Below, piece by piece: positions 52,848 to 57,780 of a stretch of DNA of 64,000 nucleotides (positions are counted from its first letter, which is position 1; each line of letters starts with the position of its first letter). The notes under the pieces were generated by a model. The model saw only the letters and a list, made by a program, of their open reading frames with translations. It was not told the origin of the DNA and made no database searches. Source of the stretch: Evansella sp. LMS18 (lineage in GTDB: Bacteria; Bacillota; Bacilli; Bacillales; Salisediminibacteriaceae); the NCBI RefSeq assembly GCF_024362785.1, contig NZ_CP093301.1:1736001-1800000 (forward strand), written 5' to 3'. A program made the position numbers and the translations under genes.

Positions 52848-53594
52848 ATGAGCCTGAAAAACGAAACGGTTCTTTACGAAGTGAAAGATAATATTGCCAC
52901 GATAAAAATGAACAGGCCCCATGTTAAAAATGCTTTAAATTTAGCGATGCACGAAGAACTTTATGATGCGTTCCAGGAGGCCCGGCAGGACAACGAGGTA
53001 AAAGTCATTATTCTGACAGGGGCTGAAGGCGCCTTTTCCAGCGGTGCCGACCTGAAAAGCTTCCCTATTGAGGACATGGAAAAGTTTGACCATGGAGAGT
53101 ATCTGGAGAAAACCTACAACAGTCTTGTTCTTTTAATCGATGAAATTGAAAAGCCAGTCATTGCTTATATAAACGGTATTGCTGTAGGAGCAGGGCTAAG
53201 CCTGGCGCTCGCATGTGACTTCCGGTTTGCTGAGAGTGAGGCAAAGTTCGGCTTAAGTTTCCTTCAGATCGGTCTTACTCCGGACGCTGGCGCTTCCTAT
53301 TTTCTCCCCCGCCTTGTAGGCCTGGGCAAAGCTATGGAAATTGCTCTCGGAGAAACCTTTACCGCAGAGGAAGCTTATAAAACAGGGCTTATTACTAAAA
53401 TCGGGCATCCAGGCGAAGTAGCTGAAAAGTTGAAACGTGCTCCTTTCCCTGCCTATTCATGGATGAAACAAAATATGAAGACAGGGACACAAAGCGACCT
53501 TCGAGCAACTCTTGATGCGGAGGTCGAGGGGCAGCGGTCCGCAGGGAAATCCGAAGACCATCTGCAGGCAGTGAAAAGGTTTTTGAGCCGGTAA
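52848..53594 (+). CDS. Enoyl-CoA hydratase/isomerase family protein
   Basis: A 248-residue crotonase-fold protein. The oxyanion-hole segments SSGADLKSF and GIAVGAGLSLALACD are present. At the two positions of the hydratase glutamates it has Ser and Phe (GAGLSLA; FGLSFLQIG), but it carries GLTPDAGASYFLPR, with the Asp used by PaaG-type isomerases. An isomerase role is therefore more likely than hydration. The start is the ATG at 52848 behind GAGGAGG, 21 bp after fadH, so they form one operon. Confidence 0.9.
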   Translation: MSLKNETVLYEVKDNIATIKMNRPHVKNALNLAMHEELYDAFQEARQDNEVKVIILTGAEGAFSSGADLKSFPIEDMEKFDHGEYLEKTYNSLVLLIDEIEKPVIAYINGIAVGAGLSLALACDFRFAESEAKFGLSFLQIGLTPDAGASYFLPRLVGLGKAMEIALGETFTAEEAYKTGLITKIGHPGEVAEKLKRAPFPAYSWMKQNMKTGTQSDLRATLDAEVEGQRSAGKSEDHLQAVKRFLSR

Positions 53595-53626
53595 CTTTAT
53601 ATATCATCTGAAAAACTATACAGTCC

Positions 53627-53657
53627 AGAACTTCCGACGATTTCCCCCGGAAGTTCT
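53627..53657 (+). terminator. Terminator of the fadH operon
   Basis: Perfect 10-bp arms AGAACTTCCG / CGGAAGTTCT followed by TCATTTG; the T tract is weak. Confidence 0.65.
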
Positions 53658-53795
53658 TCATTTGTGAAAAGAGTGTGTCAGTTTCTTTCAGCGGGACCAC
53701 GGTGTTTGGTTTTTAAGATAGTAACTAGTATAATAAATGAGGGATAAATGTTTTTATACAGTGACTGATTTTTTACGAATGGAGTGAATGTATAA

Positions 53796-54539
53796 ATGAG
53801 TGAACCAGCTAAAACACTTGAAGGATGGTATGTCCTGCATGACTTCAGGACAATGGACTGGGCTGAGTGGAAGAAACTTGGCGCGGAAGAACGGGAACAG
53901 ATTATGGGTGAATTCCTGGATATCCTTGATAAATGGCAGGATACAGAAGACAAGCGTGAAGGAAGCCATGCTCTGTACACAATCGTTGGCCAGAAAGCGG
54001 ACTTCATGATCATGCTGCTCCGCCCTACTATGGACGAGCTGAATGAACTTGAAAATGCTTTTAATAAGACCCGGTTTGCAGAATTTACCGTGCCGGCTAA
54101 TTCCTATGTCTCGGTAGTAGAATTAAGTAACTATCTCCCTGCTGACAAGGACCCTAATGAAGATCCGGAAATCCAGGCCCGCCTGAAACCGATTCTCCCT
54201 AAATGGCAGTATGCATGTTTTTACCCGATGGACAAGCGCAGAGAAGGTAACGACAACTGGTACATGCTGTCTATGGAAGACCGCCGTACTATGATGCGCA
54301 GCCATGGTATGATCGGCCGCCAGTATGCTGGTAAAGTAAGACAAATTATCAGCGGATCTGTTGGTTTTGACGACTGGGAATGGGGTGTAACTCTGTTCGC
54401 CCATGATGTGCTTCAGTTCAAAAAGCTAGTTTATGAAATGCGTTTTGATGAAGTGAGCGCCCGATACGGGGAGTTCGGCTCATTCTTTGTGGGTACCCTT
54501 CTTAACAAAGAAAAAGTAAAAGATTTCTTACACGTATAA
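53796..54539 (+). CDS. hemQ: Coproheme decarboxylase HemQ
   Basis: A 247-residue chlorite-dismutase-fold enzyme performing the last step of the coproporphyrin-dependent haem pathway of Gram-positives. The catalytic Tyr is Tyr143 (CFYPMDKRR) and the proximal His is His170 ([10 protein letters not shown]), each four positions before the Listeria enzyme residues. The gene is monocistronic with a strong terminator. It corresponds to B. subtilis ywfI. The start ATG at 53796 follows GGAGTG. Confidence 0.95.
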
Positions 54540-54543
54540 AAAA

Positions 54544-54597
54544 AGAGGCTGTTCCGAAAGCTCGCTTTATAGCGGCCTTTCGGGAACAGCTTTTTTT
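54544..54597. terminator. Bidirectional terminator between hemQ and the CueP-like gene
   Basis: GCTGTTCC-G-AAAG / CTTT-CGGGAACAGC arms, with eight T on the plus side and a T run on the minus side. Confidence 0.88.
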
Positions 54598-54629
54598 GTA
54601 CCCTTTTGTTCATGCTGACAATCAGCCTT

Positions 54630-55166
54630 TTACATCAATTGCATCGTTGTTATGCAGGTGTCATCCCCTTCAAAGGTCGATAACTCAGACTCTGCTGATT
54701 TGTCACCATGGGTGATCGTTATTTGCAATGTTCTATCCCGCGGCAGCCATAAATCAATAAATCCGTTCGCTGGCGCAGTCAGTGTTTCATCTAATATAAC
54801 GCTGCCATCCTCTTCCTCTATATACACTTCGAACTCCTCATTTACCATTTCTCCCTGACAACCTGTCAGGCTATGAATGCTTCATGGATGAGTTTGTGTT
54901 TCATAAGGAGCAATGGAAACAAAAAATTCGTCCTCTGGCAGATTGTATATGGATTGATTTTTATCGTTATCCGTCACAATCAGTTCATGGGAAGTAATGG
55001 AGGCAGACGCATCACTGACATTTCCAGCACTGTATTCTGCAACTAACTCCTTAACTTCCTGAGCTGACGTTTCGTCTGTGGCAGTATTATCATTACTAGT
55101 CAGCAGCATAAACGCCGCCGTGGCAATTACAACAATCCCGGCAAGCAGCAAAACTTTTAATTTCAT
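54630..55166 (-). CDS. CueP-like copper protein with in-frame TGA at its first conserved cysteine (candidate selenoprotein)
   Basis: Reading through the TGA at 54,882-54,884 gives a 178-residue secreted or membrane-anchored protein: signal/anchor helix at residues 5-24, then an all-beta domain with LPEDEFFVSIAPY, HP-[TGA]-SIHSLTGCQGE, GFIDLWLPRD and TFEGDDTCITTMQL. It matches the CueP family of extracytoplasmic copper-binding proteins. TGA is codon 95 and the other cysteines are Cys103 and Cys171; I recall Cys96, Cys104 and Cys172 for Salmonella CueP, the same spacing. A GGU-loop hairpin follows 18 nt after the TGA. The start is ATG 55164-55166 behind GGGGGG. No frame change is needed across the stop. 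Either selenocysteine insertion or a nonsense mutation explains it. Confidence 0.75.
54854..54870 (-). promoter_or_regulatory. SECIS-like hairpin downstream of the in-frame TGA
   Basis: In the mRNA, CCUGACA pairs perfectly with UGUCAGG around a GGU loop. The GGU begins 18 nt after the UGA, the same distance as in E. coli fdhF. The hairpin lies inside codons for LTGCQG, which are conserved in the family for protein reasons, so chance formation must be excluded. No bulged U, usual in the fdhF element, is evident. Confidence 0.5.
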
Positions 55167-55218
55167 GCTGAATCCCCCCGCTTTAATATAAGTGTACAAC
55201 TGGTTTTCCCCGCCTTGT

Positions 55219-55265
55219 GAAGCCGAGGGACAAGTTATTTTCATAATAACTTGTCCCTCGGCTTC
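55219..55265. repeat. Perfect 21-bp inverted repeat upstream of the CueP-like gene
   Basis: Two perfect 21-nt arms (55219-55239 and 55245-55265), starting GAAGCCGAGGG and ending CCCTCGGCTTC, enclose TTCAT. There is no T tract on either side. It begins about 50 bp upstream of the start codon at 55,166. Confidence 0.85.
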
Positions 55266-55642
55266 CTAATCAATTATACAAGACGGCAGGAGGCTCTACA
55301 ATTCTCTCATTGATTAATATTTTAAGATTTTATGAAGAGGGCTTCAGTATGGCAGAGATCCTCCCTTTTCCGGATTTATTGTCCATATTCTCATTCGCAC
55401 GACATGTATAACTATGTCGTCCTCCCTCTCCCTTATTCGCCCACCTAACCTCGCTTAATGCCTTGCCACTTCATAATATTTTTCTTCCTCGCAGTCATAG
55501 CCTGATTCTATAAGACATAGATATAGGATAGTGATTGCATGATAGAAAGAATTCAACTCTAGCCACTGTTCAGATCTCCTATAGACAATCCGTCAGCTTT
55601 TGTTTTTTACAACACGTAAGGAATGTTAAAGGGGGTGTTTTG
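55266..55642. promoter_or_regulatory. cwlJ upstream region with a possible sigma-E promoter
   Basis: About 377 bp. TAATATT (55474-55480), 15 bp, then CATAGCCT (55496-55503) partly fits the sigma-E pattern (KMATATT and CATANNNT), and B. subtilis cwlJ is a sigma-E gene. Otherwise nothing was recognised. Confidence 0.35.
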
Positions 55643-56074
55643 TTGGCCGTTATTAAAGCACGTGAAGAGGATATAGCTCTTCTTGGCCGGTTAATGCGGG
55701 CAGAAGCAGAGGGGGAAGGGGAACTGGGCATGCTTAAAGCGGGAAACGTCATGGTTAACCGTGTCAGATCCACTTGCCTGGATTTCGAGGATATTACGAC
55801 GGTGGAAAAAATGGTCTTTCAGTCGCCAGGGGGGTTTGAAGCTACACAGAAAGGCTACTTTTATCAGCGGGCAAGGGAGAGGGATAAACGGCTTGCCCGG
55901 AAACTTATCCAGGGGGAAAGGCACCACCCTGCAGAGTTCGCTTTATGGTTTTTCAGGCCTGACGGGCCCTGCCCGGCACAATGGTGGGGGCAGTGGAATT
56001 CAGGGCGGTACAAACTTCACTGCTTTTATACCCCGCTTGCAAGTGAGTGTCCGTCTGTTTATTCCGTGTATTAA
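55643..56074 (+). CDS. cwlJ: Spore cortex-lytic enzyme CwlJ
   Basis: A 143-residue hydrolase of the SleB/CwlJ fold that degrades spore cortex during germination, acting from the spore coat/cortex boundary. The catalytic Glu lies in RLMRAEAEGEGELGMLKAG, and VMVNRV, FQSPGGFEA and WFF-P-G-CPAQW family positions are present. There is no signal peptide, as expected. The start is the TTG at 55643-55645 behind AAGGGGGTG, giving the B. subtilis length. It is followed by gerQ, needed for its assembly. Confidence 0.93.
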   Translation: MAVIKAREEDIALLGRLMRAEAEGEGELGMLKAGNVMVNRVRSTCLDFEDITTVEKMVFQSPGGFEATQKGYFYQRARERDKRLARKLIQGERHHPAEFALWFFRPDGPCPAQWWGQWNSGRYKLHCFYTPLASECPSVYSVY

Positions 56075-56124
56075 TTTTTTCATAAAAACATAGTCTTTCT
56101 ACAGCAAAAAAAAGGAGTGATCAT

Positions 56125-56589
56125 ATGTATCCACAATCAGGCTTCCCAGGTTCCCCATTTGGAGGTCATGGAATGCCGGGAGCAGGTCCCCAGCAATTCC
56201 CGGGACCGCAGATGCAGCCAGGAATGCAGCCGGGGATGGGCGGCCAGTTCCCTGTGCCAGGGTTCGCGCAGCAACAGCCAGTTGAACCAGGACAATTCGC
56301 CCCGGGGCAGCTTCCTTTAGAGCAATCGTTTATTGAAAACATCCTCCGTCTCAACAGAGGAAAAGTGGGCACCTTCTATATGACCTTTGAAAATAATGAA
56401 CGGTGGAACGCGAAAGTTTTTAAAGGGGTCCTTGAGGCAGCCGGCCGGGATCATATTATTATCAGCGACCCGCAGTCAGGTAAACGCTATTTGCTTCTGA
56501 TGGTAAACCTTGACTATGTCACCTTTGACGAAGAGCTGGAATATGATTACCCGTTTACCGAGGACATTGCTACTTATTCCCCAAGATAA
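56125..56589 (+). CDS. gerQ: Spore coat protein GerQ
   Basis: A 154-residue inner coat protein required to localise CwlJ. A Pro/Gly/Gln-rich disordered half (residues 1-65) precedes the conserved GerQ domain (PLEQSFIENILRLNRGK ... YLLLMVNLDYVTFDEELEY). The first lysine is Lys80; the N-terminal lysines through which B. subtilis GerQ is cross-linked by Tgl are missing. The start ATG at 56125 follows AAGGAGTG. It is in an operon with cwlJ. Confidence 0.93.
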   Translation: MYPQSGFPGSPFGGHGMPGAGPQQFPGPQMQPGMQPGMGGQFPVPGFAQQQPVEPGQFAPGQLPLEQSFIENILRLNRGKVGTFYMTFENNERWNAKVFKGVLEAAGRDHIIISDPQSGKRYLLLMVNLDYVTFDEELEYDYPFTEDIATYSPR

Positions 56590-56593
56590 TACG

Positions 56594-56627
56594 AAAAAAT
56601 GAGGAGGGACAGTCCCCTCCTCATTTT
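56594..56627. terminator. Bidirectional terminator between gerQ and ywdK
   Basis: AAAATGAGGAGGG(A)C / GTCCCCTCCTCATTTT arms with A and T runs on the two sides. Confidence 0.88.
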
Positions 56628-56630
56628 TGT

Positions 56631-57002
56631 TTACATATTGAGCGCTGCGATAAACAGCATGACCCAGCCTGCGAGGAATGCTACCCCCCCAATGGGTGTA
56701 ATCGCCCCAAGGACGGATATCCCTGTCAGACTCAGGGTATATAAACTTCCGGAAAAGATAATGATTCCGATAAAGAACGCCCATCCGGCACCAGTCAGCA
56801 GCCCGGAGGACCCCACCTGATTAATAAGAAGAGCTACAGCGATTATCGCCAGCGAGTGTATCATATGGTATTGCACGCCTGTGTTAAACGTATCTACATA
56901 GCCGCCTGCTTCAAGTCTCGGCTTAAGAGCATGGGCACCAAAAGCACCTATAGCAACAAATAAGAAAGCACAAATACTGCCGATTAATAAAAATAATTTC
57001 AT
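56631..57002 (-). CDS. ywdK: YwdK family membrane protein (DUF423)
   Basis: A 123-residue protein with four predicted transmembrane helices and the family signatures GAFGAHALKPRL and YHMIHSLAI. Small membrane protein of unknown function, very widespread. The start is ATG 57000-57002, 11 nt behind AAGGAG; longer in-frame reading upstream is not supported. It is divergent from the acetyltransferase gene. Confidence 0.9.
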   Translation of the reverse strand: MKLFLLIGSICAFLFVAIGAFGAHALKPRLEAGGYVDTFNTGVQYHMIHSLAIIAVALLINQVGSSGLLTGAGWAFFIGIIIFSGSLYTLSLTGISVLGAITPIGGVAFLAGWVMLFIAALNM

Positions 57003-57159
57003 TTTTTCATAAACTCCTTTGCGTGAAATCCTCTCTTTCCAAAGAATATCATACCATAATGAAAATACCAAAAAAGTGAATACAGGTAATCCTGTTTGCA
57101 TTAAAAAAACGGAATAATCTATAATCAACCTAAATACAAAATGAGAGGAGCCGTCTCTA

Positions 57160-57780
57160 TTGCCGAAAGTTAATGTACGTGAATATAAGCTGGATGATTT
57201 TGATAAGCTGCTACTGATCCAGAAAGAGGCTTTCCCTCCCCCGTTCCCGGAAGACCTCTGGTGGAACAGGGAGCAAATCGAGGCACACGTGACCACATTT
57301 CCTGAAGGAGCGATGCTGGCTGAAGTGGATGGAGAACCGGCTGGATCCGCCACCTCTTTAATCGTCAATTTTACCGGCGAGGCCCACACCTGGGAAGAAG
57401 CTGCAGATAACGGCTATATAAAAGGAAGCCATGATCCTGACGGAGATACTCTGTATGGAATTGATGTTTGTGTAAGGCCAAAATTCCGGGGCTCAGGAAT
57501 TGCAGGGGCTTTGTACGAAGCACGTAAGAACCTTGTAATGAAACTCGGTTTAAAGCGGTATATTGCCGGATGCAGAATCCCCAACTACCATGAATATGCG
57601 GAAACTATGTCCGTTGATAAGTATGTGGAAAAGGTAAGGGAAGGAGAAATAAAAGATCTCGTTCTGTCGTTCATGCTTAAACAGGGACTGGAGCCAATAC
57701 AGGTCATTCCTGGCTACCTTGATGATGAAGAATCCCTCGATTATGCTGTCATTGTGGAATGGAAAAACCCAAACCTGTAA
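57160..57780 (+). CDS. GNAT family N-acetyltransferase
   Basis: A 206-residue acetyl-CoA-dependent acetyltransferase. The acetyl-CoA loop is VCVRPKFRGSGIAGALYEA (R-x-x-G-x-G/A). The C-terminal segment with RIPNYHEYAETMSVDKY is of the type found in a Bacillus subgroup with long C-termini. The substrate is unknown. The start is TTG 57160 behind AGAGGAG. The stop codon lies in the terminator hairpin. Confidence 0.85.
   Translation: MPKVNVREYKLDDFDKLLLIQKEAFPPPFPEDLWWNREQIEAHVTTFPEGAMLAEVDGEPAGSATSLIVNFTGEAHTWEEAADNGYIKGSHDPDGDTLYGIDVCVRPKFRGSGIAGALYEARKNLVMKLGLKRYIAGCRIPNYHEYAETMSVDKYVEKVREGEIKDLVLSFMLKQGLEPIQVIPGYLDDEESLDYAVIVEWKNPNL

Follow-up and report, generated by a model that had tools for sequence, protein, structure and literature searches.

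A putative selenocysteine form of the copper protein CueP in Evansella sp. LMS18 and other bacilli

A CueP gene with an in-frame UGA codon

In a 64,000-nucleotide stretch of the Evansella sp. LMS18 genome (the window), a gene for a CueP-family protein is interrupted by one UGA codon. We propose that this gene is very probably a selenoprotein gene, which encodes the selenocysteine (Sec) form of the CueP copper protein. Taken by itself, the decoding of UGA codon 95 as Sec appears close to certain from sequence comparison, because the UGA column is conserved, a hairpin downstream seems to be under selection and the UGA co-occurs with selA. These three observations support the sequence-only reading of this DNA, in which Sec had been placed at a conserved Cys column of CueP. 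Sec-CueP is thus apparently a conserved, widespread and undescribed selenoprotein family. The features of the gene are as follows.

54630 to 55166, minus strand: CueP-family coding sequence, from ATG at 55166 to TAA at 54630-54632; 178 residues, with UGA as codon 95
54882 to 54884, minus strand: in-frame TGA, codon 95, read as Sec; aligned with a conserved CueP Cys
54858 to 54860, minus strand: codon of Cys103, opposite a Cys of 4GQZ in the alignment
54654 to 54656, minus strand: codon of Cys171, likewise opposite a Cys of 4GQZ
54854 to 54870, minus strand: bacterial SECIS-like hairpin of 7 bp with a GGU loop (54861-54863), from folding and comparison
55085 to 55166, minus strand: N-terminal hydrophobic segment, by eye; putative signal peptide or membrane anchor
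55174 to 55179, minus strand: Shine-Dalgarno-like GGGGGG, by eye, 7 nt before the ATG
55219 to 55265, no strand assigned: perfect 21-bp inverted repeat, loop of 5 nt, ahead of the CueP gene

The reading frame from the ATG to the stop is single and the TGA is its sole interruption, and Cys103 and Cys171 follow the TGA in the translated frame, both as the sequence-only reading had described. The same reading had assigned the sequences on both sides of the TGA to the CueP family. This assignment was borne out by matches above curated cut-offs: with Cys at position 95, the window protein matched Pfam PF21172 (E 2.4e-45; 154.1 bits, cut-off 27), and it also matched NCBIfam NF038094 (CueP_fam; E 1.5e-57; 193.4 bits, cut-off 60). 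The score for the Salmonella-type metallochaperone model NF038095 was 135.6 bits and did not reach the cut-off of 195. On these profile scores, we place the protein in the broader CueP family and do not claim Salmonella-type membership.

By sequence, one solved relative was found, Salmonella CueP (4GQZ; E 2.5e-28), and in the HMMER alignment to it the TGA falls on the Cys of THPC..HSLSGCQGE. An AlphaFold2 model of the full-length protein was built from a 32-sequence alignment (mean pLDDT 81.4). The top three Foldseek matches of this model were chains of 4GQZ (E 1.7e-13; TM 0.69-0.71 on the query), and the protein is accordingly modelled with the fold of Salmonella CueP. Among the 32 aligned sequences, Cys103, Cys171, His93 and His98 are invariant and position 95 is Cys or TGA. 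The 83 residues beyond the TGA are conserved, and invariant residues flank the site on both sides. The closest named relative, an Evansella clarkii protein, is 90% identical and has TGA in the same place. Salmonella CueP (PF21172; NF038094/NF038095) shares the fold and family, two of the three site cysteines and the motif THPx..HSLxGCQGE with the window protein. However, in the window protein UGA/Sec replaces one conserved Cys, the host is Gram-positive and the N-terminus is lipoprotein-like or anchor-like. A lipobox-like motif was observed in 37 of 54 parsed Sec-CueP copies (55 were given).

Selenocysteine machinery of the genome

The genome is a single contig of 4.90 Mb. The sequence-only reading had proposed a search for sel genes, and selA (E 9.9e-163), selB, selD and tRNA-Sec were all found, together in one cluster. 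The tRNA-Sec was called by ARAGORN and matched Rfam RF01852 at 62.2 bits; selB and selD were recognised by reading the ORF sequences of the cluster. SelD of this genome has its own in-frame TGA. A gene for a SelW-like selenoprotein (CMQ-U) lies inside the sel cluster (L033:11302-11544, minus strand, ends by eye), with a CUGCGA-GUU-UCGCAG hairpin after the UGA. Both the SelD and the SelW-like TGA are followed by a hairpin with a 3-nt loop. Two FdhA genes (L177 and L178) carry an in-frame TGA in RI-U-HS; two more FdhA matches over the family cut-off, elsewhere in the genome, have no TGA.

TGA and Cys forms of CueP and their link to selA

CueP was found in 54 of 150 relatives, of which 34 have an in-frame TGA, and in 88 of 397 genomes of the order. 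For the class, 55 of 398 genomes gave a CueP match, which was over the cut-off in 54. In a phylum-wide sample, 10 of 398 genomes matched, and TGA was present in two of them: that of the window and another genome from the same order. By reading the sequences, we counted 58 copies with TGA at column 95 in 56 genomes (55 besides the window's own). These genomes are spread over 24 genus and 14 family codes, three of them come from a family outside the order (f206), and the named genera include Evansella, Salipaludibacillus, Halalkalibacter, Schinkia, Anaerobacillus, Mesobacillus and Cytobacillus. The possibility that the TGA is private to this isolate, which the sequence-only reading had raised, does not hold, because the same column carries TGA in 56 genomes and the hairpin is kept through compensatory changes. 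The genome G065 holds one Cys and one Sec copy, and G061 and G579 hold two Sec copies each. Among 22 plasmid CueP records, 21 are labelled as CueP family metal-binding protein and one (S. equorum) has no feature; this last one was the one read among the 22, and it has Cys.

Presence of selA was scored in 150 distinct CueP genomes pooled from the relatives, order and class sets, leaving out two distant CueP genomes of the phylum-wide sample (G338 and G517) and two with matches below the cut-off (G449 and G1098). It was present in 55 of the 56 TGA genomes and in 18 of the 94 other CueP genomes (Fisher 1.1e-23, kinship ignored). The sole TGA genome without selA (G005) is 76% complete and is also without tRNA-Sec, and its CueP copy is split over two frames in the incomplete assembly. 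Upstream of this TGA-bearing copy (L167) there is a thioredoxin-like ORF (WCPSC). Among the first 150 relatives, 32 of the 34 TGA genomes and 8 of the 20 other CueP genomes gave a tRNA-Sec match above the gathering score. In G065, a TGA genome, selA is present and tRNA-Sec is not over the gathering score.

If the UGA terminated translation, the gene would be a pseudogene or would encode a truncated protein of 94 residues. UGA is indeed an ordinary stop elsewhere in the window, where it ends one of 15 chosen ORFs, and truly decayed CueP copies, disrupted by stop codons or breaks of the frame, do exist in two genomes without selA. One of them (L154 in G583) has both TGA and TAG and the other (L189 in G1042) is in pieces. 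Because the TGAs of these two copies are at other positions, their genomes were counted on the non-TGA side; when they are left on the TGA side, the counts with and without selA are 55/3 against 18/74 (Fisher 2.1e-21). G583 has an additional, uninterrupted Cys-CueP copy. However, termination does not explain why TGA tracks selA, nor why the 83 residues past the TGA are conserved and two of them, Cys103 and Cys171, do not vary among 32 aligned sequences. It is also opposed by the codons at residue 95. From 80 named loci, 77 were parsed first, one (L053, Cys) was parsed later and two (L084 and L110) were left out. When the 77 loci were read without constraint at residue 95, the codon was TGA in 19, TGT in 48 and TGC in 10, and TAA or TAG was found in none of them.

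A SECIS-like hairpin downstream of the UGA

The sequence-only reading had described a hairpin with a GGU loop 18 nt after the UGA. This hairpin (CCUGACA-GGU-UGUCAGG) was found at 54854-54870, with the loop starting at that distance. The SECIS of E. coli fdhF likewise follows its UGA and consists of a short stem topped by a small loop, as do the SelD and SelW-like hairpins of this genome. Unlike these elements, the window hairpin has a CueP-specific stem sequence, which overlaps the LTGCQ codons. The bSECIS model, as described in the portion of PMC13188914 available to us, has a loop of 3-9 nt with G in the first two loop positions, a stem of 4-16 bp, a distance of 16-37 nt from the UGA and an MFE of -7.5 or lower. 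The window hairpin falls within these limits (3 nt, GGU, 7 bp, 18 nt and -9.7 kcal/mol). In the fold calculation that had been suggested with the sequence-only reading, the hairpin formed, and its energy as a single sequence was only mildly unusual. A 38-nt stretch of the window folded at -9.7 kcal/mol (z -1.92), and 9 of 200 shuffles folded equally well or better; two longer stretches were less unusual (z -0.86 and -1.55). Therefore, one sequence alone is no proof of a SECIS. An Rfam scan of 53000-57500 gave no SECIS family; the palindrome upstream of the gene gave microRNA matches only, far below the gathering score.

The agreement among homologues, in contrast, far exceeds what chance would give. 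The exact hairpin (YTGACAGGTTGTCAR) was present in 65 of 65 distinct Sec contexts with the strict motif and in 3 of 91 Cys contexts (kinship ignored). The Cys-CueP proteins of Bacillaceae and Paenibacillaceae are closely related to the window protein (48-67% identity), but they have a Cys codon where the window has TGA, and the exact hairpin is missing in 88 of the 91 contexts. The shared form is YUGACA-GGU-UGUCAR, 18 nt after the UGA and mostly in synonymous positions. Three further Sec copies, L190 (LAGC), L204 and L205, fail the strict motif and were left out of the count of 65; they keep the hairpin. In 51 Sec contexts, Thr101, Gly102 and Cys103 of LTGC are each encoded by a single codon (entropy 0), whereas every synonym of these codons is used among 86 Cys contexts. 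Outside the hairpin, codon variation is broadly similar in the two sets.

Base pairs of the stem were tallied with a script. One pair joins the first position of the Leu codon to the third position of the Gln codon; in the 65 Sec contexts it is T-A in 45, C-G in 19 and C-A in one. Thus, T-A or C-G is found in 64 of 65 Sec contexts as compared with 47 of 86 Cys contexts, and the tree requires no fewer than 5 switches of this pair among Sec rows. In L190, ACA is changed to GCA and TGT to TGC, by which an A-U pair becomes G-C and all 7 pairs are kept. The stem of one Sec copy, L188, contains a C-A mismatch. Full pairing is retained in 5 of 86 Cys contexts (an earlier set). This pattern of substitution indicates that the hairpin is kept under selection in the TGA copies. 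SelB and tRNA-Sec would then decode UGA codon 95 as Sec, aided by the hairpin just downstream. The occurrence of the exact hairpin in all TGA contexts and only 3 of 91 Cys contexts also speaks against termination at the UGA, which we consider very improbable.

A further possibility is that the UGA serves as a selenium-responsive switch, which gives the full Sec protein when selenium is available and a short functional N-terminal fragment when it is not. Two such outcomes are, in principle, a property of any Sec UGA. However, the fragment would miss the half of the protein that bears Cys103 and Cys171, and the invariant residues flank the site as in one domain; we therefore give this idea very little weight. 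Readthrough of the UGA as Trp or Cys, or its reassignment, without selenium would likewise account for the conservation past the stop, but it is the least credible of these readings, because an ordinary ORF in the genome ends with TGA, the Sec system is present, the non-TGA residue in the 77 loci is Cys in 58 of 58 cases and never Trp, and the hairpin lies at bSECIS spacing and shares its loop size with the SelD and SelW-like hairpins. The pseudogene and readthrough readings were rejected on the conservation, the hairpin and the selA linkage, and we retain the decoding of the UGA as Sec.

Apparent exchange of Sec and Cys

For the protein tree we used 49 Sec and 86 Cys rows and left out 2 short Sec fragments. 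The tree requires at least 13 changes of state, although many of its forks are unresolved. Of these Sec/Cys changes, only 2 are forced on branches with good support, where no more than 2 pairs of rows differ. Reversal, repeated gain and gene transfer may each have contributed. Three Cys-CueP copies (L032, L106 and L107) still have the exact hairpin. Because L032 is placed among Sec copies on the tree, a reversion from Sec to Cys is likely in that copy; recent reversions of this kind are possible for all three. The apparent exchange of Sec and Cys, together with these hairpin-bearing Cys copies, makes CueP a case for studying how Sec is gained and lost. In addition, the natural Sec/Cys pairs, which occur even inside one genome (G065), could be used to test what selenium adds.

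Possible role of Sec in copper handling

Salmonella CueP is a periplasmic copper protein, and the C104S substitution abolishes copper protection, according to the accessible part of PMC13201067. In the part of PMC7558416 at hand, the copper site of CueP is described as conserved Cys and His residues grouped on one face. We examined the gene neighbourhood of the window CueP: a chlorite-dismutase/HemQ-like gene lies on one side and cell-wall hydrolase and gerQ genes lie on the other, and no copper gene adjoins it.

Among the homologues, the Cys form of Bacillus kwashiorkori (L067) is preceded by genes for a copper P-type ATPase, a ResA-type thiol oxidoreductase and a DsbD-like membrane protein, and is followed by a gene for a Csp1/DUF326-like protein. 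By sequence clusters, the ResA/DsbD-like pair stands before CueP in seven further Cys loci. The ResA/DsbD-like/CueP block recurs in L064, L067, L069, L093, L101, L105 and L108; a P-type ATPase of one cluster precedes it in 6 of the 7 and a Csp1/DUF326-like gene follows in 4 of the 7. This block is likely a copper and thiol-redox operon. In the Sec locus of Schinkia azotoformans (L060), the end of a heavy-metal ATPase, a DsbD-like protein and a two-component system come before CueP, and another Sec locus (L075) has the same DsbD-like/two-component arrangement. Of the 20 Sec loci, the window among them, only 2 have a DsbD-like neighbour within 4 kb, and of the 59 Cys loci 10 do; thus, the copper context is drawn from a minority of loci.

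Because some homologues adjoin copper-efflux and thiol-reductase genes, Sec in CueP may be a copper ligand or a redox centre outside the cytoplasm; in the latter case, it might cycle with Cys103 or Cys171. We envisage that the full-length Sec protein would be made and exported by way of the export or anchor segment. Sec95, Cys103, Cys171 and the nearby His93 and His98 could then form a copper/redox site, at which a selenolate might handle Cu(I) more tightly, or be re-reduced more easily, than Cys. We judge it reasonably probable that residue 95 serves copper homeostasis by taking part directly in metal or redox chemistry. That Sec95 is itself a copper ligand, in a selenolate-Cu(I) site of an exported carrier, is a more tentative idea, which we consider rather doubtful. 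If it is true, many bacilli use a selenolate-Cu(I) site where ordinary CueP has a thiolate. We know of no Sec-copper bond. The Sec-metal bonds named in the part of PMC13188914 available to us are with Mo/W and Ni.

Relation to described selenoproteins

The sequence-only reading had remarked that CueP was unfamiliar as a selenoprotein. In agreement with this, CueP, NF038094 and PF21172 are missing from the prokaryotic selenoprotein catalogue of May 2026, which has 119 families and subfamilies, as far as the available portion of PMC13188914 extends. No report of a CueP selenoprotein was found in full-text literature when CueP was combined with selenoprotein or selenocysteine. The term CueP did not appear in the accessible portions of PMC12013277 (deep-Sep) or PMC5029168, and the NCBIfam 20.0 scan of the window protein showed no separate Sec-CueP model. 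In Table 1 of PMC13188914, within the portion available, CopZ-like 2Fe-2S proteins, the SO_0444 Cu/Zn efflux transporter, the mercuric transport protein and MbdU have a predicted Sec tied to metals, as proposed here, but none of them belongs to the CueP family. Sec-CueP would thus enlarge the selenoproteome with a family that is widespread among bacilli, and whose genes appear truncated when read by the standard code. It would also link selenium with a family of copper proteins that have a fold other than the thioredoxin-like one.

An inverted repeat upstream of the gene

No repeat as long as the 21-bp inverted repeat was found upstream of 19 named Sec-CueP relatives. In the Evansella sp. LMS18 genome the repeat at 55219-55265 occurs once, and it covers an alternative upstream ATG of the CueP gene.
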